Positions 8,240 to 21,259 of a stretch of 32,237 nt of DNA are shown one piece after another. The DNA is taken from positions 1 through 32,237 of the forward strand of contig JALOTF010000025.1 in NCBI GenBank assembly GCA_025458025.1, given 5' to 3'. The position numbers were made by a program, and so were the translations under genes. The notes beneath the pieces are model-generated. The model ran no database searches and was not told where the DNA came from. It worked only from the letters and a program-made list of their open reading frames with translations. How positions within the stretch are numbered: position 1 is the stretch's first letter; each line of letters opens with the position of its first letter. The stretch is from Beijerinckiaceae bacterium. GTDB lineage: Bacteria > Pseudomonadota > Alphaproteobacteria > Rhizobiales > Beijerinckiaceae.

Positions 8240-9532
8240 ATGATGAGACAATCCGGCTACATGTTCTTCGAGATGGCGCATGCCGTGCTTGGCCCGGCGC
8301 GCGCGGCGAGCGATGCCATGCGGCTGTTCTACCGAAACCCGCTCAACCCGCTCACGCATACAGTTTATGGCCGCTCCGTTTCGGCGGCCTGCGAATTGTT
8401 CGAGCGCGTCACGCGGCGCTACGGCAAGCCAGCCTTCATGCTGCCGCAGACGAAGGTGAACGGGCAAACGGTTGATGTCATCGAGCGTGTCATCTGGCGT
8501 GCCCCGTTCTGCAATCTTGTCCATTTCGATCGCGCGATGCCGGTGAAAACCGCGCCGCAGCCGCGCCTTTTGATTGTCGCGCCGATGTCCGGCCATTTCG
8601 CCACGCTTTTGCGCGGCACGGTGGAAGCCTTCCTGCCCACGCATGAAGTCTACATCACCGATTGGGTGGATGCGCGCATGGTGCCTCTGGCGCAGGGCAA
8701 GTTCGACCTCGACGATTACGTCGATTACGTGCGCGACATGATCACCCTGCTCGGGCCGGATGTACATGTCATGGCCGTCTGCCAGCCTTCGGTGCCGGTC
8801 ATCGCCGCCATCGCGCTGATGGAAGAGGATAACGATCCGGCCATTCCGCGTTCCATGACGCTGATGGGCGGCCCGATCGATACCCGTCGCAGCCCGACGG
8901 AAGTGAACAAGCTGGCGCAGAAGCGCGGTATCGACTGGTTCCGCGCGAACTGCATCGCCCGCGTGCCCTTCCCGCATCCGGGTATCATGCGCGAGGTCTA
9001 TCCGGGCTATCTCCAGCTCTCCGGCTTCATGGCGATGAACATCGACCGGCACCTCACGGCGCATTGGGACATGTTCAACCACCTCGTGAGCAACGATGGC
9101 GATTCGGCCGAGAAGCATCGCGATTTCTACGACGAATACCTCGCCGTGATGGACCTTACGGCCGAATTCTACCTGCAGACGGTGGATACGGTCTTCGTGC
9201 GCCACGCCCTGCCGAAGGGCGAGATGATGCATCGCGGTCGCAAGGTGGACCTCACGGCCATCCGCCGTTGCGGCCTGATGACGGTCGAGGGCGAGAAGGA
9301 CGACATTTCCGGCGTCGGCCAGACCAAGGCCGCGCATGATCTCTGCGTGAACCTTCCGAAGGAGCGCCAGCTCTACCACCTCCAGAAGGAGGTGGGGCAT
9401 TACGGCGTGTTCAACGGCTCGCGGTTCCGCCGCGATATCGCGCCGGCCATTGCGGGCTTCATGGATCATTGCGCCGGGCTCGCGGCCAAGGAAGCGGCGA
9501 CGCCACCGGCCAAGCTACGTGCGGTGCGCTGA
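8240..9532 (+). CDS. phaZ: Intracellular polyhydroxybutyrate depolymerase
   Basis: This 430-residue alpha/beta hydrolase mobilises stored PHB granules, releasing hydroxybutyrate oligomers or monomers in the cytoplasm. It lacks a signal peptide, as expected for the intracellular PhaZ family. The nucleophile is a cysteine in a lipase-box-like VCQPS (C181), with D355 in GEKDDISG and H387 in EVGHYGVFNG. These positions agree closely with the Cys-Asp-His triad described for Ralstonia PhaZa1. The N-terminal YRNPLNPLTHT and MSGHFATLLRGTVEAF segments are typical. ATG 8240 follows AAGGAG (8225-8230) at good spacing. It is divergent from regB and ends in a strong terminator, so it is monocistronic. No phaC, phaP or phaR gene is in view. 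Confidence 0.95.
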   Translation: MMRQSGYMFFEMAHAVLGPARAASDAMRLFYRNPLNPLTHTVYGRSVSAACELFERVTRRYGKPAFMLPQTKVNGQTVDVIERVIWRAPFCNLVHFDRAMPVKTAPQPRLLIVAPMSGHFATLLRGTVEAFLPTHEVYITDWVDARMVPLAQGKFDLDDYVDYVRDMITLLGPDVHVMAVCQPSVPVIAAIALMEEDNDPAIPRSMTLMGGPIDTRRSPTEVNKLAQKRGIDWFRANCIARVPFPHPGIMREVYPGYLQLSGFMAMNIDRHLTAHWDMFNHLVSNDGDSAEKHRDFYDEYLAVMDLTAEFYLQTVDTVFVRHALPKGEMMHRGRKVDLTAIRRCGLMTVEGEKDDISGVGQTKAAHDLCVNLPKERQLYHLQKEVGHYGVFNGSRFRRDIAPAIAGFMDHCAGLAAKEAATPPAKLRAVR

Positions 9533-11616: not shown

Positions 11617-13737
11617 TCAGCGTCCGAAGAGGCGCGAGAGCAGGCTGCGATCCTGCGCAGACGGGCCGTCGAGCCGCATGGGGGAATCGCCCACCGGCGC
11701 GGGCGGACGATTGCCCGGCTGCGCCACCGGCGTGCCATTGCCGCTGCCGAGCCACCCGCCTTCATTGAGGCCGGGCAGGGGCTGCGGGGCCACCTTGTTA
11801 TGCGCCTCGCGCATGAAGCTGGCCCAGAGTTCAGCCGGAAGCCCGGAGCCCGTGACCTTCTTCATCGGCTCGCCTTCGTCGTTGCCGACCCAGACGCTCG
11901 CGACGAGATGCACGGTATAGCCCACGAACCAGGCGTCCTTGTGCTCCTGCGTGGTGCCGGTCTTGCCGGCGGCCTGCCAGCCCGGCAGGTCCGACTTGCG
12001 AGCGGTTCCCGAAACAAGCGTCTCCCGCATCATGCGATTGAGCGTGCCAATAATCGCCGGCTCGGCCACCTGCCCGAGGGTTTGCGGCTGGCGCCGGTAG
12101 ATCAGCGTGCCATCCGTCGCCTTCACTTCGATGATCGCATGCGGAATGACCCCCGTGCCGCCATTCGCGAACGCGGCATAAGCGGTAGTCATTTCCATGG
12201 GCGTGACTTCCGATGTGCCCAGCGCCAGCGAGGCATCCGCCCGAAGCCCGGAGGAAATGCCGAGCCTCTGCGCTGTGCGCACCACCGTGCGCGGGCCCAT
12301 CTCCATGATGAGCTTGGCCGGAATGGTGTTCAGCGACATCGCCAGCGCTTGCTGAAGCGTGACATTGCCGAAATATTCGCGCGTGTAGTTCTCCGGCTTC
12401 CAGCCCTTGATATTCACCGGCCCATCCTCGCGGATCGTATCCGGCGTCAGGCCTTTCTCGAGGGCCGCGAGATAGACGAATGGCTTGAAGCTGGAGCCCG
12501 GCTGGCGGCGCGCCATCACCGCGCGGTTGAACTGGCTCTGCGCATAATCGCGCCCGCCCACCAGCGCGCGCACCGAACCATCGGGGCTCATCGCGACCAT
12601 GGCGATTTGGTCGACATTGAGCTTCAGGCGCTTCTGCTCGAATTCGGTGGCGACCACCTTTTCCGCCAAGTTTTGCAGGCGCGGATCGATTGTGGTTTTC
12701 ACCACGATATCCTTGTCGATGGTGCCGATATGGTCGTCGAGGACGTCCATCACCCAATCGGCGACGTAGTTGCCCGCACCGGGCCGGGCGCGGCGCCGCG
12801 CCTCGGTAGTGTTGGTCTTGGCGAGCTTCACCATATCCGGCGTCGCATGGCCGAGTTCCACCATGCGATTGAGCACGAGGGCCGCGCGCTCGGCTGCACC
12901 TTCGGGGTTGCGGTTCGGCGCAAGGCGCGAGGGGCTTTGCACGAGGCCCGCGAGCACGGCCGCCTCGCCGAGGGTGAGCGCCCGCGCTGACTTGCCGAAA
13001 TAGCGCTGCGAGGCCGCCTCCACACCATAGGCGCCGGAGCCGAAATAGACGCGGTTCATGTAGAGTTCGAGGATCTGGTCCTTCGAATAGTTCCGCTCCA
13101 GCCAGAGCGAGAGCAGGGCTTCCTGGATCTTGCGGGAGAGCGTGCGCTCCTGCGTGAGGAAGAGGTTCTTTGCGAGCTGCTGCGTGAGGGTGGAGCCCCC
13201 TTCCGCCGCCCGGCCAGAACTCGCGTTGCGCACCACCGCGCGGGCGAGGCCCACGGGATCGATCCCGAAATGCGAGTAGAAGCGATGATCCTCAATCGAA
13301 ACGAAGGCCATCGGCAGGTAGCGCGGCAATTCGCCGAAGGGCACATTCGCGCCGCCCGTCTCGCCCCGATTGGCGATCAGCGTGCCATCCGCCGCGAGGA
13401 TCGCGACATTCGGCGGCCGTTTGGGCACCGCGAGCTGGTCGATTGGCGGCAATTTCATCGCGAAATAGCCGATGACACCGGCCAGCGCGATGGCCCCCCA
13501 GAGCGCGAGCGTCAGGCTCCAGTAGAAGATCGTGCCGAAAAAGCCGCGTCTCCCCTTGCCCCGGCGATGCCGGTCACGGCCTCTGCGCGGTGGCGGGTCA
13601 TCGGGCTCCGGCTCCGGGCGACGGCTTGTGCGGCGGCCACGATCCTCCGGCGCGAGACGGATCTCGCCCGAGGCATAGCCGCCCTCATCGTCGAATCGCG
13701 GTTCGCGCCGCGATCCGCCTGCCCGCCCTTTGGTCAT
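11617..13737 (-). CDS. Class A penicillin-binding protein (PBP1A family)
   Basis: A 706-residue bifunctional peptidoglycan synthase. The cytoplasmic N-terminus (residues 1-65) is very basic and Arg/Pro-rich, followed by one membrane anchor (about 68-93). The GT51 transglycosylase domain holds catalytic E149 in SIEDHRFYSHFGID and the GGSTLTQQLAKNLFL motif (180-194). The transpeptidase domain has nucleophile S415 in the SSFK box, SLN at 468-470 and KTG at 592-594. The Gly/Pro-rich tail after 655 looks disordered. It is shorter than typical rhizobial mrcA products and lacks an obvious OB insert, so it is one of the shorter PBP1A paralogues. A TTAA-N7-TTAA box 80 bases upstream suggests cell-cycle control by CtrA. 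Confidence 0.95.
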   Translation of the reverse strand: MTKGRAGGSRREPRFDDEGGYASGEIRLAPEDRGRRTSRRPEPEPDDPPPRRGRDRHRRGKGRRGFFGTIFYWSLTLALWGAIALAGVIGYFAMKLPPIDQLAVPKRPPNVAILAADGTLIANRGETGGANVPFGELPRYLPMAFVSIEDHRFYSHFGIDPVGLARAVVRNASSGRAAEGGSTLTQQLAKNLFLTQERTLSRKIQEALLSLWLERNYSKDQILELYMNRVYFGSGAYGVEAASQRYFGKSARALTLGEAAVLAGLVQSPSRLAPNRNPEGAAERAALVLNRMVELGHATPDMVKLAKTNTTEARRRARPGAGNYVADWVMDVLDDHIGTIDKDIVVKTTIDPRLQNLAEKVVATEFEQKRLKLNVDQIAMVAMSPDGSVRALVGGRDYAQSQFNRAVMARRQPGSSFKPFVYLAALEKGLTPDTIREDGPVNIKGWKPENYTREYFGNVTLQQALAMSLNTIPAKLIMEMGPRTVVRTAQRLGISSGLRADASLALGTSEVTPMEMTTAYAAFANGGTGVIPHAIIEVKATDGTLIYRRQPQTLGQVAEPAIIGTLNRMMRETLVSGTARKSDLPGWQAAGKTGTTQEHKDAWFVGYTVHLVASVWVGNDEGEPMKKVTGSGLPAELWASFMREAHNKVAPQPLPGLNEGGWLGSGNGTPVAQPGNRPPAPVGDSPMRLDGPSAQDRSLLSRLFGR

Positions 13738-13816
13738 ATCCGGACCTTGAGCCCCCGCCTTCCAAGCCTCAACAAACGGGAAGAGGCCACCAAGCCGTCA
13801 TGTTGCGGCAATCGGC

Positions 13817-13831
13817 TTAACCTCTCGTTAA
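13817..13831. promoter_or_regulatory. CtrA-type binding motif TTAA-N7-TTAA
   Basis: TTAA at 13817-13820 and TTAA at 13828-13831 are separated by exactly seven bases (CCTCTCG). They lie 80-94 bases before the start of the penicillin-binding protein gene and about 70 bases after the ThDP enzyme stop. TTAA is rare in this GC-rich DNA. The spacing matches the published consensus of the alphaproteobacterial cell-cycle regulator CtrA. The flanking base of the extended consensus (TTAAC) is matched in only one half. Confidence 0.6.
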
Positions 13832-13900
13832 TCCCGAGGAATTCCCGCCCTTCTGGGCGCGAATTGCGGCCTTTTCGCGAGCGATGGCCCAGATTTTGTC

Positions 13901-15568
13901 TCAGCGCGGGCGGTTGCGGATGGCGGTGATGGTGGTGGTCGGCGTGATCGCCTCGGGGTCGATCAGGAGGTGCAGGATCGCCGGCTTGCCGGAGGCGCGG
14001 GCGCGCTCGAAAGCCGGAATGAACTCCTCCGTGCGCTCCACGCGCTCGCCATGTCCGCCGAAGGCCCGGGCATAGGCCGAGAAATCCGGGTTTTTCAATT
14101 CCGTCGCCGAGACGCGACCCGGGAATTCCCGCTCCTGATGCATGCGGATGGTGCCATACATCCGGTTGTCGATCACGAGCACGATGATCGGAAGATCATA
14201 TTGCACGGCGGTCGCGAAATCCTGCCCGTTCATCAGGAAACAGCCATCGCCCGCGAAGGCGACCACCGTCTTGTCCGGGAAGGCGCGTTTCACGCCCACC
14301 GCCGCCGGCACGCCATAGCCCATGGAGCCCGAGGTGGGCGCGGCCTGCGTCGCATAGCCGTTGAACATGTAATAGCGGTGGAGCCAGGTCGCGTAGTTCC
14401 CCGCGCCGTTGCAGAGCACGGAATCTGCCGGGAGGTGATCGCGCAGGTAAGCCATCACCGGGCCCATCTGCAGCGAGCCGGGGATGTTCGTCGGAACCTC
14501 GGTCCATTTGCGATATTCCGCATGGAGCGCGGTGCGCGCCTCGGCCCAGGGCTTCTCCTTCGGCGGCTGGAGCGTCTGCAGGGCAGCCGCGAAGCCTTCC
14601 ATGCTGGCATGGATCGGCAGGTTCGAGGCATAGACGCGCCCCAGCTCCTCATCGCCCGCATGGACATGGATGAGCCGCTCGCCATCGCCCGGAATATCGA
14701 GCAGCGAATAGCCCTGGCTCGGCATTTCGCCGATCCGCGCGCCAATCGCGAGGATGAGATCCGCCTCCTGGATGTATTTCACCAGCGGCGGATTGGGTCC
14801 GATGCCGAGATTGCCGACATATTGGCCGTGCCGCTCGGGGAAAATCATCTGACGGCGGAAGGAGTTCGAGACCGGAAGGTCAAAGGCTTCCGCGAAGCGC
14901 ACGAGGCGATCCACCGCCTGCTGGCTCCAGCCGGTGCCTCCGGCGATCACGATCGGCTTCTTCGCGGCCCAGAGGCGCTTCTGGAGTTGCGCCATCTGCG
15001 AGAGCGAGGGATGCGTTTCCAGCGGCTCCACGAAGGGTGCATCGGCCACGGCCGCCATTTCGGTCAGCATGTCCTCCGGCAACGCGATCACCACCGGACC
15101 CTTGCGACCGGACATTGCGACATGGAAGGCGCGATGGATGATCTCGGGGATGCGCGCGGCATCATCGATTTCCGTTGTCCATTTCGTCATGGAGCCGAAC
15201 ACATCGCGATAATCGAGTTCCTGAAACGCGCCGCGCTCGCGCGCCTTGCGCTCGATCTGCCCCACGAACAGAATGAGCGGGATCGAATCCTGGTGCGCGA
15301 TATGGATGGCCGGGGCGGCATTGAGCGCGCCCGGCCCGCGCGTGACAAAGCAGATGCCGGGCCGTCCCGTGAGGCGCCCCACCGCATCCGCCATCATGCA
15401 GGCGCCACCCTCCTGCCGGCAGACGGTGACGCGGATGGACGCATCATGCAGGCTGTCGAGCACCGCGAGATAGCTCTCGCCGGGCACGCAGAAAATGTCG
15501 GTGACCTGCTGGCGAATGAGTTGCGCCACGAGAATGTCAGCAGCGCGGCGGGGAGTGTTGGCGGTCAT
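13901..15568 (-). CDS. ThDP-dependent enzyme, acetolactate synthase-like, substrate unknown
   Basis: A 555-residue enzyme of the ALS/POX/oxalyl-CoA decarboxylase superfamily. The N-terminal pyrimidine-binding domain has the essential glutamate E53 (CRQEGGACMMADA) and ends near residue 170. The central domain follows (about 190-330), then the pyrophosphate-binding domain with GDG (440-442) leading to IDN at 467-469, the metal/ThDP motif. It lacks an ilvN regulatory subunit gene next door, so it is unlikely to be the biosynthetic acetolactate synthase. It starts two bases after the stop of a CoA-transferase gene, with AAAGAGGGC as ribosome site inside that gene. The context suggests a C-C lyase or decarboxylase acting on a CoA thioester or 2-keto acid, but this is inference. 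Confidence 0.88.
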   Translation of the reverse strand: MTANTPRRAADILVAQLIRQQVTDIFCVPGESYLAVLDSLHDASIRVTVCRQEGGACMMADAVGRLTGRPGICFVTRGPGALNAAPAIHIAHQDSIPLILFVGQIERKARERGAFQELDYRDVFGSMTKWTTEIDDAARIPEIIHRAFHVAMSGRKGPVVIALPEDMLTEMAAVADAPFVEPLETHPSLSQMAQLQKRLWAAKKPIVIAGGTGWSQQAVDRLVRFAEAFDLPVSNSFRRQMIFPERHGQYVGNLGIGPNPPLVKYIQEADLILAIGARIGEMPSQGYSLLDIPGDGERLIHVHAGDEELGRVYASNLPIHASMEGFAAALQTLQPPKEKPWAEARTALHAEYRKWTEVPTNIPGSLQMGPVMAYLRDHLPADSVLCNGAGNYATWLHRYYMFNGYATQAAPTSGSMGYGVPAAVGVKRAFPDKTVVAFAGDGCFLMNGQDFATAVQYDLPIIVLVIDNRMYGTIRMHQEREFPGRVSATELKNPDFSAYARAFGGHGERVERTEEFIPAFERARASGKPAILHLLIDPEAITPTTTITAIRNRPR

Positions 15569-15570
15569 AA

Positions 15571-16758
15571 TCAGCCCTCTTTCCGGGGATTCCAGTTCGG
15601 ATCAGCAAGAATTTCAGCATTGTGTTGCCCGAGGCCCGGCGCATGGCGCGGCGAGACCTGCGCCTCGCCATCGAGCACGATGGCGGAACGCACGGTGGGC
15701 ACGAAGCCCGCTTCGGCCTCGGGGTTCGGAAGGTTCACGCGTACGCCGCGATGGATGACCTGCGGATCGGCGAAAACCTCGCCGACATCGTTGATCGGAC
15801 CGGCGGGCACGCCCGCCGCTTCGAGCCGCGCGAGGATCTCGACCTTGGGGATCTTCGCGGTCAGCGCGGAGAGAGCCGGCACGAGGATCGCACGCTTTTC
15901 CACGCGCCCGCGGTTGGTGGCGTAATCCGGGTTCGCGGCAAGATCATCCCCGCCAATCGCCGCGCAAAGCTTGCGATATTGCCCGTCATTACCGCTCGCG
16001 ATGATGATGTAGCCATCGGCGACCGGGAACACCTCGTAGGGCACGATATTCGGATGCGCATTGCCCAGGCGCTTCGGGGTCTTGCCCGAAACGAGATAGT
16101 TCAGTGCCTGATTGCCGAGCACCGCGATCTGGCTGTCTAGCAGCGCGCAATCAATCGTAGCGCCCTCGCCTGTGGCATCGCGGCGGCGAAGCGCCGCGAG
16201 AATGGCCACGCTCGCATACATCCCGGTGAAGATATCGGCGGTCGCATAGCCCGCCTTCGTGGGCTGGCCATCCGGTTGCCCGGTGATGTCCATCGCGCCG
16301 GCCATGCCCTGGATGAGAAAGTCATAGCCCGCGCGGGCGGCATAGGGGCCGTCCTGCCCGAAGCCGGTGATGGAGGTGTAGATCAGCGAGGGCTTCAGCT
16401 TGCGCAAGGATTCCGCATCAAGCCCGTATTTTGCGAGCCCGCCGACCTTGAAATTCTCCACCACGACATCCGCCGCCAGAACGAGATCGCGGATCATCGC
16501 GATATCCTCGGCGCTTTCGAAATCGGCCTCGATGGAGCGTTTCCCGCGATTGCAGGCGTGAAAATACGCTGCGCCGAGATCACCGCCGCCTGCTTTCGTC
16601 ACGAAAGGCGGGCCCCATGTGCGCGTATCGTCGCCCGCGCCCTTGCGCTCGACCTTCACGACATCCGCGCCGAGATCGGCCAAGGTCTGCCCGACCCATG
16701 GCCCCGCGAGGATGCGCGCGAGTTCGAGAACCTTCAGTCCCTCAAGCGGCTTAGTCAT
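15571..16758 (-). CDS. CaiB/BaiF (class III) CoA-transferase
   Basis: A 395-residue family III CoA-transferase that moves CoA between organic acids. It begins MTKPLEGLKVLELARILAGP, the standard opening of the family (LADLGADVVKVERKG follows). RAGYDFLIQGMAGAMDITG contains D146, the expected position of the aspartate that carries the acyl anhydride and thioester. C-terminal EAAGVPAGPINDVGEVFADPQ is also typical. The open frame extends upstream to 17037, but that part is antisense-like and overlaps the previous gene in another frame. ATG 16758 sits 8 bases inside the end of the TraX-like gene, with GGGGA upstream, implying coupling. Paired with a ThDP enzyme it recalls the frc-oxc oxalate module, but neither partner shows enough Frc/Oxc-specific sequence to claim that. 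Confidence 0.92.
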   Translation of the reverse strand: MTKPLEGLKVLELARILAGPWVGQTLADLGADVVKVERKGAGDDTRTWGPPFVTKAGGGDLGAAYFHACNRGKRSIEADFESAEDIAMIRDLVLAADVVVENFKVGGLAKYGLDAESLRKLKPSLIYTSITGFGQDGPYAARAGYDFLIQGMAGAMDITGQPDGQPTKAGYATADIFTGMYASVAILAALRRRDATGEGATIDCALLDSQIAVLGNQALNYLVSGKTPKRLGNAHPNIVPYEVFPVADGYIIIASGNDGQYRKLCAAIGGDDLAANPDYATNRGRVEKRAILVPALSALTAKIPKVEILARLEAAGVPAGPINDVGEVFADPQVIHRGVRVNLPNPEAEAGFVPTVRSAIVLDGEAQVSPRHAPGLGQHNAEILADPNWNPRKEG

Positions 16759-17551
16759 CGGCATCCCCGGTTTCGGTGTTGTCGCCGTGGGTGGACCACA
16801 AGGTGCCCAAAGCTGCAAGCAGCACGATCTGCGCCGCATAGATTTCGAGGCTGTGCTGCCCGCAGAAGCGCAAGGCGCGCCGCAGGCCCGATGGCGGCTG
16901 GAAGATCGAATCCTCGCGCCGGAAATCGCGCAGCAGCATCGCGATGCCCGCAAGGCCCAGCACGAGCAAAGCTGTGTTCGGGACGCTGAATTTGTAATCC
17001 CGTTGTTCCACGATCGCATAGACCGCGAAGGCGACAAACCCGGCTAAATCGCGCAACGCAAGGGTGGAATTGTCCGCAATCGCCTTGCGATGCATCAGCC
17101 CAAGCACCGCGAAGAGCCAGCCTTCAGCCCCATATTCAAGCCATGGATTGATGAAGGGCATCACCAGCACGCAAGCGAGCAGCACAAGCATAAGCGGCAG
17201 GATGTGACGTTCGAGAAACCGCTCAAGATATGGCAAAGCGAGGCGAATGAGCGCGAAATTGAAGAGGATGTTGAGCTGCGTTGCCGCCAGCGTTCCATTC
17301 CACAGGTAATCCACCCCCGTGAGGAGCATGCCGAGCGCCAGCCAGCGCCACGGAATATCCCGCGTGCGGGCAAAGCCAATGAGGAAGAAGAAAATCGGCA
17401 CGCCGAGCCGGCCAATCACGCGCAGGATCGGCCAGTCATCCGCGAGGAAATGCCCGATATGATCCACGAGGATGAGCAGAAGCGCGAAGGCCTTCAGCGC
17501 ATCGGTCGTCGTCACCGGCGGGGCAGGAAGGCGGGGTTCGGCCGTGGTCAC
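16751..17551 (-). CDS. TraX-like polytopic membrane protein (acyltransferase-related)
   Basis: A hydrophobic protein of about 266 residues with roughly eight membrane segments. Its start, TTTDALKAFALLLILVDHIG, with a following RLGVPIFFFLIGFA, matches the TraX/acyltransferase-3-like pattern in which a membrane His/Asp pair follows TM1. TraX of the F plasmid acetylates pilin, but chromosomal homologues are common and uncharacterised. The start is unclear: GTG 17551 is my choice, TTG 17614 and GTG 17515 are alternatives, and none has a strong ribosome site. Its last codons overlap the CoA-transferase start (ATGACTAA), so it is the first gene of a three-gene operon. A surface-acylation role supplied by acyl-CoA chemistry is conceivable but unproven. 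No conjugation genes are nearby. Confidence 0.72.
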   Translation of the reverse strand: MTTAEPRLPAPPVTTTDALKAFALLLILVDHIGHFLADDWPILRVIGRLGVPIFFFLIGFARTRDIPWRWLALGMLLTGVDYLWNGTLAATQLNILFNFALIRLALPYLERFLERHILPLMLVLLACVLVMPFINPWLEYGAEGWLFAVLGLMHRKAIADNSTLALRDLAGFVAFAVYAIVEQRDYKFSVPNTALLVLGLAGIAMLLRDFRREDSIFQPPSGLRRALRFCGQHSLEIYAAQIVLLAALGTLWSTHGDNTETGDADD

Positions 17552-17638
17552 GCGCGCTTTTCCGAAAAAACTCGCTCGAAAGAGCCCAGCCGCCTGCCCC
17601 GTGTCAAATAACAAAGCGGAATGAACCCATCATCACGC

Positions 17639-17756: not shown

Positions 17757-18392
17757 ATGACGATGATGGAGCATTCCGCGCCGAGGCTCGCTATTCCTTC
17801 GACGCGCACGATCATCAATCTCGCGATCGGTGGCGCGGTGGGGCTGGCGATCTGGGAAATCTGGGCGCGCGTCTTCACGAAATGGGTTCTGGGCTATCCG
17901 CTGGAGCCGGCGGGGCTGATCGATGCCATCGCGCAGCACCAATTGGGGCTTTCCGTGCCCTATCTCCTGCGCGAGGCGCTGCATTATGCCGTCGGCATTC
18001 TGGGATATCCCATTGCCTACTGGATCATCTCGCGCTTCATCCCGCGCTGGAGCCTCACGCTTGATGCGATCGTGTTCGTCACCTTCACGGCAGGCGCAGT
18101 GGTCTATGCGATGCGCGGACAGGCGACCTTCGGCACGCTGATGTTCTGGATTATCGCGAGCGGCTTCATCGCCACGCGCTTCATCAATCCGAACGAGCGC
18201 CTGCGCGACAGCCTCGCCTGGGGCACCTTCACCTGGTTGAATGCCTTGGGCATCATGGCGCCGATTGGCGGGCTCTCGTTCTATCTGCTCGGCGAGGGCG
18301 GAGCCTTGTCCTTCATGAGCTTTGTCGGCCACGTGATTTATGGTGCAGTGGCCGCCTGGATTTTCGAGGCGCGGGAGAACAAGGCGGCGTGA
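17757..18392 (+). CDS. Unidentified inner-membrane protein
   Basis: A 211-residue protein that I do not recognise at family level. It shows about five to six hydrophobic segments: residues 18-38, 70-95 (VGILGYPIAYWIISRF), 103-118, 128-143, 158-178 and 185-200. A short amphipathic stretch EPAGLIDAIAQHQLG precedes the second segment. There is no signal peptide, cysteine motif or charged active-site cluster, so it is more likely a small permease-like or accessory protein than an enzyme. ATG 17757 follows GAGGGGG, about nine bases upstream. It is divergent from the TraX-like operon and convergent with the ALDH7 gene, so it is probably monocistronic. No function is proposed. Confidence 0.8.
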   Translation: MTMMEHSAPRLAIPSTRTIINLAIGGAVGLAIWEIWARVFTKWVLGYPLEPAGLIDAIAQHQLGLSVPYLLREALHYAVGILGYPIAYWIISRFIPRWSLTLDAIVFVTFTAGAVVYAMRGQATFGTLMFWIIASGFIATRFINPNERLRDSLAWGTFTWLNALGIMAPIGGLSFYLLGEGGALSFMSFVGHVIYGAVAAWIFEARENKAA

Positions 18393-18404: not shown

Positions 18405-19979
18405 TTACTCCGAGATGTCGAAGCTCACGCCCTGCGCAAGAGGCAGGGCGTTGCCGTAATTGATGGTGTTGGTCGCCCGCCGCATATAGGCGCGCCAGCT
18501 GTCTGAGCCCGCCTCGCGACCGCCGCCAGTTTCCTTCTCGCCGCCAAAAGCGCCGCCAATCTCGGCACCCGAGGGGCCGATATTCACGTTCGCGATGCCG
18601 CAATCCGAGCCCGTGGACGAAACAAACAGCTCCGCCTCGCGCATGTCACGCGTGAAACAGGAGGAGGAGAGCCCCGCGCCCACCGCATTGTTGAGCGCGA
18701 TGGCTTCCGCGAAATCATCATATGGCATCACATAGAGGATCGGCGCGAAGGTCTCGCGCATCACAGGGCCTTCCTGTGCCTTCATCTCCACAAGAGCGGG
18801 CCGGGCATAGAAAGCCTTGGCGGGCATCCCGCTGGCCAAGCCGCCGCCTGTGATTTCCGCACCCAGCGCACGCGCATCCACGAGGGCCGCTTCCATCGCG
18901 CGATAGGCCGCCTCATCGATGAGCGGGCCGATCAGCGTACCGGCTGCGCGCGGATCGCCGATGCTCGCGGAACCCCAGACCTTCTTCAGGCGCGGCACGA
19001 GCGTGTCATAGACCGAGCGATGCACAAACAACCGCCGCAGGGTGGTGCAGCGCTGGCCGGCCGTGCCCATGGCGGCGAAGGCCACGCCGCGCAGCACGAG
19101 ATCGAGATCCGCCGTCGGCGTGATGATCGCGGCATTATTGCCGCCGAGTTCCAGCAAAGCCCGGCCAAAGCGCTCGGCAACCTTGGGGCCGACCTTCTTC
19201 CCCATGGCCGTGGAGCCCGTCGCCGAGATGAGCGGCACACGATGATCCGCGACCAGAATCTCGCCGATCCGCCCGTCGCCAATCAGCAATTCGGAGAGGC
19301 CATCGGGAATTTCGCCGTTGCCGGCTTCCTCGTAGGCCGCCGCCGCACGCATCAGGATCGCCTGCACGGCAAGTGCTGTCAGCGGGGTCTTCTCCGAGGG
19401 CTTCCAGATGACGCTGTCACCGCAGACAAAGGCGAGCGCCGCATTCCAGCTCCAGACAGCGACGGGGAAGTTGAAGGCGGAGATCACGCCCACCGGCCCG
19501 AGCGGGTGCCATGTCTCCATCATCCTGTGGTTGGGGCGTTCGGTGGCGATGGTCAGGCCATGGAGCTGGCGGGAGAGACCGACCGCGAAATCGCAGATAT
19601 CGATCATTTCCTGCACTTCGCCCAAGCCCTCGGAGGTGATCTTGCCTGCCTCGAGCGTCACGAGGCGGCCCAGTTCGGCCTTGGCCATGCGCAATTCCTG
19701 CCCGAGCAGGCGCACGAATTCGCCGCGCTTCGGCGCGGGCACCTGCCGCCAGGCGTGAAAGGCCTTCACGGAGCGCGCGATGGCCGCATGCGCTTCATCG
19801 GGCGTGGTGTCTCGCAACTGGGCGATCTCTTCCCCCGTGATGGGCGAACGCACAATGCGGCTGCCCCCCGTGATGGCATCGCGCGGGACGCCGAAGCCTT
19901 CGAGAAGGGTGATGGCTTCCTCTTGCGGCGTCGAGAGAATCGACGCGAAAGTCTTTCCGAGCAGGTTCATCGGCTTCAT
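18405..19979 (-). CDS. amaB: ALDH7-type aldehyde dehydrogenase (piperidine-6-carboxylate dehydrogenase-like)
   Basis: A 524-residue NAD-dependent aldehyde dehydrogenase. Nucleophile C311 lies in MGTAGQRCTTLRRLFVH, the general base is E277 in LELGGNN, and K193 (WKPSEKTPL) and N170 (ISAFNFPV) complete the site. The GNNAAIITPTADLDLVLRG block and the C-terminal IANVNIGPSGAEIGGAFGGE are typical of the ALDH7/antiquitin branch, which oxidises alpha-aminoadipic semialdehyde (piperidine-6-carboxylate) to aminoadipate in lysine and pipecolate breakdown. ATG 19979 is my choice; ATG 19970 is an alternative, and neither ribosome site is strong. It is divergent from a FAD amine-oxidase-like gene, echoing the amaA/amaB pair of Pseudomonas. 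The family is sure; the exact substrate is inferred. Confidence 0.9.
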   Translation of the reverse strand: MKPMNLLGKTFASILSTPQEEAITLLEGFGVPRDAITGGSRIVRSPITGEEIAQLRDTTPDEAHAAIARSVKAFHAWRQVPAPKRGEFVRLLGQELRMAKAELGRLVTLEAGKITSEGLGEVQEMIDICDFAVGLSRQLHGLTIATERPNHRMMETWHPLGPVGVISAFNFPVAVWSWNAALAFVCGDSVIWKPSEKTPLTALAVQAILMRAAAAYEEAGNGEIPDGLSELLIGDGRIGEILVADHRVPLISATGSTAMGKKVGPKVAERFGRALLELGGNNAAIITPTADLDLVLRGVAFAAMGTAGQRCTTLRRLFVHRSVYDTLVPRLKKVWGSASIGDPRAAGTLIGPLIDEAAYRAMEAALVDARALGAEITGGGLASGMPAKAFYARPALVEMKAQEGPVMRETFAPILYVMPYDDFAEAIALNNAVGAGLSSSCFTRDMREAELFVSSTGSDCGIANVNIGPSGAEIGGAFGGEKETGGGREAGSDSWRAYMRRATNTINYGNALPLAQGVSFDISE

Positions 19980-20028
19980 TCCGTGGATGCGCGCACCGAT
20001 CCTCGGGCGCAAAGCAGGGTTGACCGGT

Positions 20029-20043: not shown

Positions 20044-20074
20044 TGTGGCGGTTGCGAGGGTAGCGGGCAGGGGA

Positions 20075-21259
20075 ATGGCAGAGAATTTCGACGTGGTTAT
20101 CGCGGGAGGTGCGGTGATCGGCTCCTCCATCGCCTGGCACCTGGCCGCGCATCCCGGATTTTCCGGCCGCATCCTCGTGGTCGAGCCGGATATGACCTAC
20201 CAGCGTTCGGCCTCGGCTTTGTCGGCAGGGTCCATCCGCCAGCAATTCAGCCAACCCGTGAACATCGCGATTTCGCTCTACGGAATCGGGTTTTTGCGTT
20301 CGATCGGCGAGATTCTGGCGGTTGAGGGGGATCGCCCCATCGTAGGCCTTCACGAGGGCGGCTACCTTTATCTCGGCGAGGAGAGCCATCGCGAAGGCTT
20401 TGCGGCCAACAACGCGATCCAGCGCCAGATGGGCGCGGAGATCGACCTGCTGGATGCGCCGGGCCTGAAGGAGGCCTTCCCTTGGCTTGAAACATCCGAT
20501 CTCGCGATCGGTTCCTTTGGCGTTTCCGGCGAGGGCTGGTTCGACGGCTACGGCCTGATGCAGGCCTTCCGCGCGAAAGCACGCTCGCTCGAGGTCGCAT
20601 ATCGCCAGGGTCGCGTGACAGGCGTGGAGCGCGCGGATGGTCGCGTGACAGGCGTGACTCTGGAGGATGGCACGCGCATCGGCTGCGGTGCGCTGGTGAA
20701 TGCCGCTGGTGCCTCCGGCGCGCGGGTGCTCTCGGCCGCGATGGGCTTTGCCGTGCCGGTCTACGCGAAAAAGCGCAGCGTTTTCAGCTTCTCCTGCAAG
20801 GAGGCGCTTCCGCGCCACCCGCTGATCATCGACAAGACCGGCGTCTGGTGGCGGCCCGAGGGCGAGGGCTACATCACGGGCTATTCGCCGGATGATCTCG
20901 ATGAAACCGATCACGGAAGCGATTTCGAGGTCGATTGGGCGCTCTTCGAGGAGGTGATCTGGCCGGCGCTGGCGACGCGCATCCCCGCTTTCGAGGCCAT
21001 CCGGCCCGGACGCGCCTGGGCCGGGCATTACGACATGAACCTGCTTGATCACAATGCGCTGGTGGGGCGCGTGCCGGGCCTCGCGAATGGCTTCATCGCC
21101 TGCGGCTTTTCCGGCCATGGCCTGCAGCAATCGCCCGCCGTGGGGCGTGGTTTGGCAGAACTCATCACGGAGGGGCGTTATATCAGCCTCGACCTTGCGG
21201 ATTTGTCGCCGGAGCGGGTGCTGAGCAACACGCCGCTGCTCGAACGCAACGTGATCTAG
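20075..21259 (+). CDS. FAD-dependent oxidoreductase, DAO family
   Basis: A 394-residue flavoprotein of the D-amino acid oxidase/sarcosine oxidase superfamily. The dinucleotide motif is [18 protein letters not shown] at the N-terminus, and the substrate domain runs about 85-280. The C-terminal FAD-contact segment is [27 protein letters not shown]. The [16 protein letters not shown] segment resembles the FOXRED1/sarcosine-dehydrogenase branch. ATG 20075 follows GCAGGGGA; the frame is open to 20045, but those codons lack a ribosome site. Beside the ALDH7 gene it could oxidise pipecolate or another secondary or amino acid to the imine. An exact 18-base direct repeat (20609-20626, 20639-20656) encodes two GRVTGV copies. 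It ends in CTAG, shared with glpK. Confidence 0.9.
20609..20656 (+). repeat. 18-base exact direct repeat inside the FAD oxidoreductase gene
   Basis: GGTCGCGTGACAGGCGTG occurs at 20609-20626 and at 20639-20656, a period of 30 bases that keeps the frame. Both copies encode GRVTGV. The protein family often has a G-x-V-T-G-V repeat at this beta-hairpin, so the protein repeat is expected; the identity at DNA level is not. Confidence 0.8.

Follow-up and report, generated by a model that had tools for sequence, protein, structure and literature searches.

A conserved CoA-transferase/thiamine diphosphate enzyme gene pair from a Beijerinckiaceae bacterium, a candidate for glutarate formation and activation in bacterial lysine breakdown

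Beyond 2-oxoadipate, lysine breakdown proceeds through a dehydrogenase complex in animals and through HglS in plants and some bacteria, and a GcdH-GcdG glutarate module (GcdH, glutaryl-CoA dehydrogenase) is fed from 5-aminovalerate via DavT and DavD. A class III CoA-transferase near a thiamine diphosphate (ThDP)-dependent enzyme is known from the Frc-Oxc pairs (formyl-CoA transferase and oxalyl-CoA decarboxylase), whose genes, frc and oxc, are adjacent in E. coli. Here we describe a gene pair encoding a class III CoA-transferase (CoAT) and a ThDP-dependent enzyme on contig JALOTF010000025.1 (assembly GCA_025458025.1) of a Beijerinckiaceae bacterium; the whole stretch of 32,237 nucleotides is hereafter referred to as the window. 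The pair is a real, conserved two-gene module and very probably belongs to glutarate/lysine metabolism. Judged from the sequences, it would probably account for one step in the breakdown of lysine by bacteria and, in some relatives, for one in biotin synthesis.

In Agrobacterium, the conversion of glutarate to glutaryl-CoA by CaiB has been demonstrated and is required for biotin, and resting cells form biotin from lysine, 2-oxoadipate or glutarate (PMC7645780); the abstract, Discussion and passages of that paper cited here name no enzyme for the conversion of 2-oxoadipate to glutarate. Because CaiB is needed and acts on free glutarate, the 2-oxoadipate dehydrogenase complex, which gives the CoA ester directly, would not easily explain that conversion. 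HglS acts on 2-oxoadipate, as we propose for the ThDP enzyme, and its product, in the part of PMC7286885 cited here, is 2-hydroxyglutarate and not glutarate. Lysine breakdown via pipecolate and 2-aminoadipate is described for Phaeobacter inhibens in the cited part of PMC5653290. Literature searches for a bacterial 2-oxoadipate decarboxylase returned none named in the titles and abstract openings listed, and searches for PRK08199, the family of our ThDP enzyme, or for Atu2126 found no paper. The ThDP gene is a candidate for the step from 2-oxoadipate to glutarate. The CoAT step is already known from Agrobacterium; what is new here is a proposed variant of glutaryl-CoA-type lysine breakdown, with the ThDP enzyme as a good candidate for its 2-oxoadipate step.

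The genes of the operon and their neighbours in the window are the following.

13901-15568, minus strand: ThDP-dependent enzyme of NCBIfam PRK08199 (NF006052, 876.3 bits), candidate 2-oxoadipate decarboxylase
15571-16758, minus strand: class III CoA-transferase (CoAT), SUGCT/CaiB/GcdG-like (PF02515, 403.6 bits), candidate succinyl-CoA:glutarate CoA-transferase
16751-17551, minus strand: TraX/acyltransferase-3-like membrane protein (PF05857, 51.1 bits), accessory
17757-18392, plus strand: small membrane protein, divergent from the operon, with a weak DUF6789 match below the cut-off
18405-20012, minus strand: L-piperidine-6-carboxylate/aminoadipate semialdehyde dehydrogenase (AmaB/AASADH; NF050084, 787.1 bits)
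20045-21259, plus strand: FAD-dependent oxidoreductase of the DAO family (PF01266, 167 bits)
13737-11617, minus strand: class A penicillin-binding protein, the next same-strand gene after the ThDP gene

Coordinates and Pfam families agree with the description in an earlier note on this DNA: the three genes, all on the minus strand, are coupled by an 8-base overlap (16751-16758, TraX-like gene and CoAT) and then a 2-base gap (15569-15570, CoAT and ThDP). The ThDP protein matches all three TPP enzyme domains of Pfam. As that note had also observed for ilvN, no ThDP small-subunit gene follows the ThDP gene, the penicillin-binding protein gene being next on the strand. The AASADH exceeds the curated cut-off of NF050084 (730 bits), and its true start may lie downstream of 20012. 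The operon is thus next to a lysine/pipecolate breakdown gene, to which the earlier note makes no reference.

We compared the ThDP enzyme with the NCBIfam models and considered the best 25. The score against NF006052 was above the cut-off of 539 bits, and those of six relatives were 823-922 bits; NCBIfam names this family only 'thiamine pyrophosphate protein', without an assigned function. The enzyme fell below the cut-offs of TIGR00118 (biosynthetic acetohydroxyacid synthase, AHAS; 328 vs 538.35 bits) and TIGR02418 (the catabolic acetolactate synthase AlsS; 253.6 vs 551.1 bits), as it did for every acetolactate synthase model among the 25, which included no Oxc model. A pyruvate oxidase model, NF006377, was matched weakly (270.9 bits, cut-off 742). 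The 5-guanidino-2-oxopentanoate decarboxylase of NF005712, presumably AruI, is likewise an acetolactate synthase-like ThDP enzyme for a long amino-acid-derived 2-oxoacid, but our enzyme scored only 245.8 bits with this model, far under its cut-off of 500, and the pathway is different. The top solved match was 9zgl, 'ancestral acetolactate synthase, catabolic', at 220 bits, whereas structures of 2-hydroxyacyl-CoA lyase and oxalyl-CoA decarboxylase gave 139 bits or less. The kinship to the latter two enzymes that the earlier note had considered is thus not borne out. As to a grouping with catabolic acetolactate synthases, which it had also raised, the nearest structure does bear that name, but the protein falls into another NCBIfam subfamily, and our ThDP tree was built without AlsS.

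We also aligned 94 rows of the ThDP family (93 different sequences, as one is shared by the loci L040 and G082/L128) with three AHAS rows. The Arg of the FDDR motif and the Trp of the RQWQ motif, which we take to be the AHAS substrate residues, behaved uniformly: the Arg was found in none of the 94 rows, and the Trp position was occupied by a His (His477) in all 94. E. coli IlvB itself has Gln at the latter position. Glu31, Arg77, His89, Arg112, Arg238, Arg398 and His477 are invariant in the family, and the three AHAS rows do not share them.

The top NCBIfam model for the window CoAT was NF052585, succinate--glutarate CoA-transferase. The CoATs of two Rhizobium loci, L070 and L155, both taken from CoAT/ThDP pairs, exceeded its cut-off of 750 bits (766 and 794, respectively), and that of L136 scored 549. 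The best solved relatives of the window protein were a CaiB/BaiF protein (4ed9, 451 bits) and succinate--hydroxymethylglutarate CoA-transferase (9br6, 321 bits); classical formyl-CoA transferase structures gave about 146 bits or less, and one entry so named (10uh) gave 291. The window CoAT belongs to the same class III family as the SUGCT-type enzymes (Agrobacterium CaiB, Atu2127; P. putida GcdG; human SUGCT), from which it differs in that its score lies under the equivalog cut-off and in that its partner is a ThDP enzyme; no such partner is mentioned for CaiB, GcdG or SUGCT in the parts of the literature cited here.

The genomic surroundings were surveyed in 80 named loci with a close ThDP relative (the best 80 of 474), in which we counted tblastn matches above limits of 250 bits for CoAT, 450 for AASADH, 400 for GcdH, 250 for DAO, 60 for TraX and 80 for the small membrane protein, and in 150 genomes from the order to which the window's organism belongs, one of them being its own. 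AASADH counts rest on a Bosea query in the loci and on NF050084 in the genomes. Near the ThDP gene of the 80 loci we found CoAT in 17, AASADH in 17, DAO in 12, TraX in six and GcdH in three, and the small membrane protein occupied the same place in eight. In the order, CoAT and ThDP lie at most 1 kb apart on one strand in 13 of the 150 genomes, ThDP and GcdH at most 3 kb apart in eight, and the CoAT family adjoins GcdH (within 3 kb, same strand) in 33.

Bosea sp. Leaf344 (L048) carries AASADH, GcdH, CoAT and ThDP in this order, all on one strand; its GcdH was identified via solved glutaryl-CoA dehydrogenases (630 bits), being under the cut-off of the sole glutaryl-CoA dehydrogenase model listed in NCBIfam (223 vs 470). 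The same four genes stand together on one strand in G010, G044, G045 and G085 (L129-L132), and in G010 and G045 (L129, L131) a DAO gene follows ThDP on that strand. The loci L128-L139 and L142 were picked because their genes adjoin and serve as illustrations, not as a sample. In L056 and L058, AASADH directly precedes ThDP and CoAT was not found in the locus; in G149, GcdH stands beside ThDP and CoAT had no match at E <= 1e-80. These arrangements link the ThDP gene to the pathway, and not to the transferase only. Loci linked to lysine genes are spread across the ThDP tree, its first split included (support 85-88); from this quick tree, with very long branches to its E. coli rows, we take only that the family holds together and that the linked loci are scattered within it. 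AASADH and the ThDP gene co-occur more often than expected: at a threshold of 600 bits, for example, the ThDP gene was present in 36 of the 50 genomes with an AASADH over the cut-off and in 37 of the 100 others. Nine combinations of thresholds were compared, the bit thresholds having been set after seeing the data and Fisher's test ignoring kinship.

The pairing itself was also counted in a further sample, 101 genomes from the family to which G136 belongs; we judge this family to be Rhizobiaceae, since G136 groups with two Rhizobium loci in the tree. The ThDP gene (E <= 1e-190) was present in 60 of these genomes, CoAT (E <= 1e-150) in 58 and both in 52, and in 43 of the 52 the two genes were adjacent with gaps of -7 to 232 bases. 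As the pair recurs 43 times with CoAT always upstream, the pairing is beyond chance. The three-gene order envisaged by the earlier note is not kept, TraX being present in six of the 80 loci, but the order of CoAT and ThDP is, in the loci, in the order and in the Rhizobiaceae alike.

From family membership, gene order, conservation and the presence of the other pathway genes, all of them directly observed, we infer a reaction for the ThDP enzyme and an aldehyde dehydrogenase to serve it. AASADH would yield 2-aminoadipate, which an aminotransferase encoded elsewhere would convert to 2-oxoadipate. The ThDP enzyme would decarboxylate 2-oxoadipate to glutarate semialdehyde and CO2, and an aldehyde dehydrogenase, AASADH itself or another, would oxidize the semialdehyde to glutarate. 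CoAT would then convert glutarate to glutaryl-CoA, and GcdH glutaryl-CoA to crotonyl-CoA. On this sequence evidence we consider 2-oxoadipate decarboxylation a reasonably likely function of the ThDP enzyme, and the pair reasonably likely to be the glutarate-forming and glutarate-activating arm of lysine breakdown via pipecolate and 2-aminoadipate. If so, free glutarate and CoAT would constitute a branch distinct both from the 2-oxoadipate dehydrogenase complex and from HglS, and AASADH and the ThDP enzyme would stand in for the DavT and DavD of the 5-aminovalerate route. The window's genome holds AASADH, ThDP, CoAT and GcdH, the last on another contig (G000:C38) and 84% identical to the Bosea protein, and it has no match to HglS (PF07063), which is present in four of the 150 order genomes.

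A different arrangement is seen on a plasmid of S. medicae, where an acyl-CoA dehydrogenase gene, taken as GcdH, adjoins CoAT without a ThDP gene, and succinate-semialdehyde dehydrogenase and GABA transaminase genes lie 4.4 and 6.0 kb off. We would expect such an arrangement where glutarate derives from 5-aminovalerate.

Several observations weigh against assigning the pair to lysine breakdown. None of CoAT, AASADH and GcdH was found near the ThDP gene in 60 of the 80 loci (25 of the 80 have less than 5 kb on one side of it), and other 2-oxoacids may therefore be substrates of the family. One 46% identical relative, on a Pseudosulfitobacter plasmid, stands beside genes for a TRAP transporter, LarB and an FAD oxidoreductase. 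The ThDP family reaches further than the lysine genes do: at E <= 1e-100, 118 of the 150 order genomes contain a ThDP match, and AASADH exceeds its cut-off in 50, of which 14 lack the ThDP gene at 600 bits. In 26 of the 33 genomes with CoAT beside GcdH, no ThDP gene adjoins CoAT, which suggests that the transferase is a glutarate enzyme by itself, and the window CoAT scored 545 bits, below the cut-off of NF052585. The family sample contains nine genomes with the two genes apart and, at the E-value limits given above, six with CoAT alone and eight with ThDP alone. HglS and the pair occur together in G023 and G136, and are therefore not strictly alternative. GcdH is absent from the window, no aminotransferase was found beside the operon, and the clusters have no recurring gene for a dedicated glutarate semialdehyde dehydrogenase; a second aldehyde dehydrogenase lies directly downstream of ThDP in L047.

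The reaction order that the earlier note had suggested, in which CoAT activates an acid and the ThDP enzyme then decarboxylates or cleaves the CoA ester as Oxc or 2-hydroxyacyl-CoA lyase does, draws on the tight coupling of the two genes and on the Frc-Oxc precedent. We regard it as very improbable. In our loci the ThDP enzyme is nearer to acetolactate synthases in its structural and NCBIfam matches, the context is lysine and not oxalate, and the neighbouring AASADH and GcdH genes fit decarboxylation of a free 2-oxoacid followed by CoA transfer, that is, the steps of Frc-Oxc in reverse order. Moreover, the loci L056, L058 and L139 have ThDP next to AASADH or GcdH and contain no CoAT, and in the 26 genomes CoAT is beside GcdH without an adjoining ThDP gene. 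That the enzyme is simply an acetolactate synthase, catabolic or biosynthetic, and is linked to lysine genes by chance or for some other reason, is highly improbable even though its closest solved relatives are acetolactate synthases, the ancestral catabolic one first. Its scores are below the cut-offs of both TIGR models, the AHAS Arg and Trp are missing throughout the family (the Trp is absent from E. coli IlvB as well), the linkage to GcdH, CoAT and AASADH is recurrent, and the window's genome already has a true acetolactate synthase on contig C35 (TIGR00118, 812 bits, cut-off 538).

Two further possibilities keep the enzyme within the pathway, and each is unlikely. In one, a pyruvate-oxidase-like 2-oxoadipate oxidase, using quinone or O2, would form glutarate in a single step and need no semialdehyde dehydrogenase, which is consistent with the weak match to NF006377 and with the R. 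leguminosarum stretch L155, where no aldehyde dehydrogenase is annotated. However, the window protein has no PoxB-type C-terminal extension, its best solved matches are acetolactate synthases, and AASADH, which might take the semialdehyde, is near ThDP in 17 of the 80 loci; L070 in addition has a member of the aldehyde dehydrogenase cluster about 5.5 kb off on the other strand. In the other, of much the same low probability, the substrate would be 2-oxoglutarate or another 2-oxoacid, or the enzyme would carry out a carboligation of glutarate semialdehyde. The gene context is the same and the family extends beyond the lysine loci, but pathway knowledge leaves 2-oxoadipate to glutarate as the carbon-losing step between AASADH and free glutarate, and the residues invariant in all 94 rows argue for a single reaction. 

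The broadest form of the 2-oxoadipate decarboxylase assignment, for which we see an even chance, is that the PRK08199 enzymes, which are widespread in Alphaproteobacteria, are dedicated to the decarboxylation of 2-oxoadipate (or to forming glutarate from it by oxidation), serving a free-glutarate branch of lysine breakdown and acting as the glutarate source for BioZ in Rhizobiaceae. A large family whose members are at present labelled 'thiamine pyrophosphate-binding protein' or the like would thereby gain a function.

The biotin link was considered for the Rhizobiaceae pair. The six loci of this group that we inspected (L070, L084, L133, L134, L138 and L142) showed no AASADH and no GcdH, and in loci of this kind the pair may supply glutaryl-CoA for BioZ-type biotin synthesis. 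For the window organism, breakdown is favoured over BioZ by the four pathway genes, the lack of an HglS match and the finding of a single PF08541 protein, presumably FabH, in a genome that is 97% complete; BioZ biotin synthesis was set aside there. A saccharopine route was also rejected for this genome: its single PF16653 match (L125, 2335-3771) adjoins a gene of the Orn/DAP/Arg decarboxylase family and looks like a polyamine gene, no other search for lysine 2-oxoglutarate reductase having been made. The R. leguminosarum pair on pSK03 is annotated as 'CaiB/BaiF CoA-transferase family protein' and 'thiamine pyrophosphate-binding protein', and a RidA-family gene (L155, 9903-10247) lies convergent to it, directly after the pair. 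RidA proteins handle reactive enamines, and the gene might fit an amino acid breakdown locus.

The third gene of the operon appears to be accessory to the pair. The TraX-like protein matches PF05857 (cut-off 25 bits) and Acyl_transf_3 (PF01757; 36.6 bits, cut-off 31), but it falls short of the TraX pilin acetylase model TIGR02755 (27.6 vs 149.35 bits) and so belongs only to the wider Pfam TraX family. Its GTG start is at 17551, and the same frame is already open from a TTG at 17614. Among the 80 loci, the gene was detected in the nearest relatives (L035-L039) and in the more distant L046, where it stands between GcdH and CoAT, and went undetected in the other 74. With this distribution, the part in surface acylation that the earlier note had considered for it was set aside. 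A module of CoAT and a ThDP enzyme dealing with a small acid and its CoA ester, as that note had proposed, is conserved, without TraX as its third member; its author probably misread the chemistry of the module as well as the third member.

Further observations concern neighbouring genes and other loci. In G023 and G136, HglS and AASADH are less than 2 kb apart, and in G103 the same holds for HglS and a fragment of AASADH. At the HglS locus of G136 (L140, G136:C1:3126000-3138000), genes for an AmaA-like pipecolate oxidase (440 bits against a cut-off of 600) and for an aminotransferase share a strand with AASADH, and the CoAT/ThDP pair is at a separate site. At E <= 1e-3, the AmaA model for pipecolate oxidase did not match the window DAO protein. 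In L129, two genes (12463-14916) diverge from the AASADH-GcdH-CoAT-ThDP-DAO cluster; one encodes a LysR regulator and the other a BhcA-like class V aminotransferase (615.5 bits, cut-off 650), possibly acting on 2-aminoadipate. The surroundings of the ThDP relative on the Pseudosulfitobacter plasmid (L150, 3045-9795) suggest a cassette for 2-hydroxyacid oxidation and decarboxylation. A CoAT/ThDP pair, 61% and 66% identical, respectively, is carried by the 1.57 Mb plasmid pMaq22A_1p of Methylobacterium aquaticum (L149). Elsewhere in the window, the protein encoded at positions 8240-9532 of the plus strand matches PF06850, the C-terminal domain of PHB depolymerase, with 327 bits.

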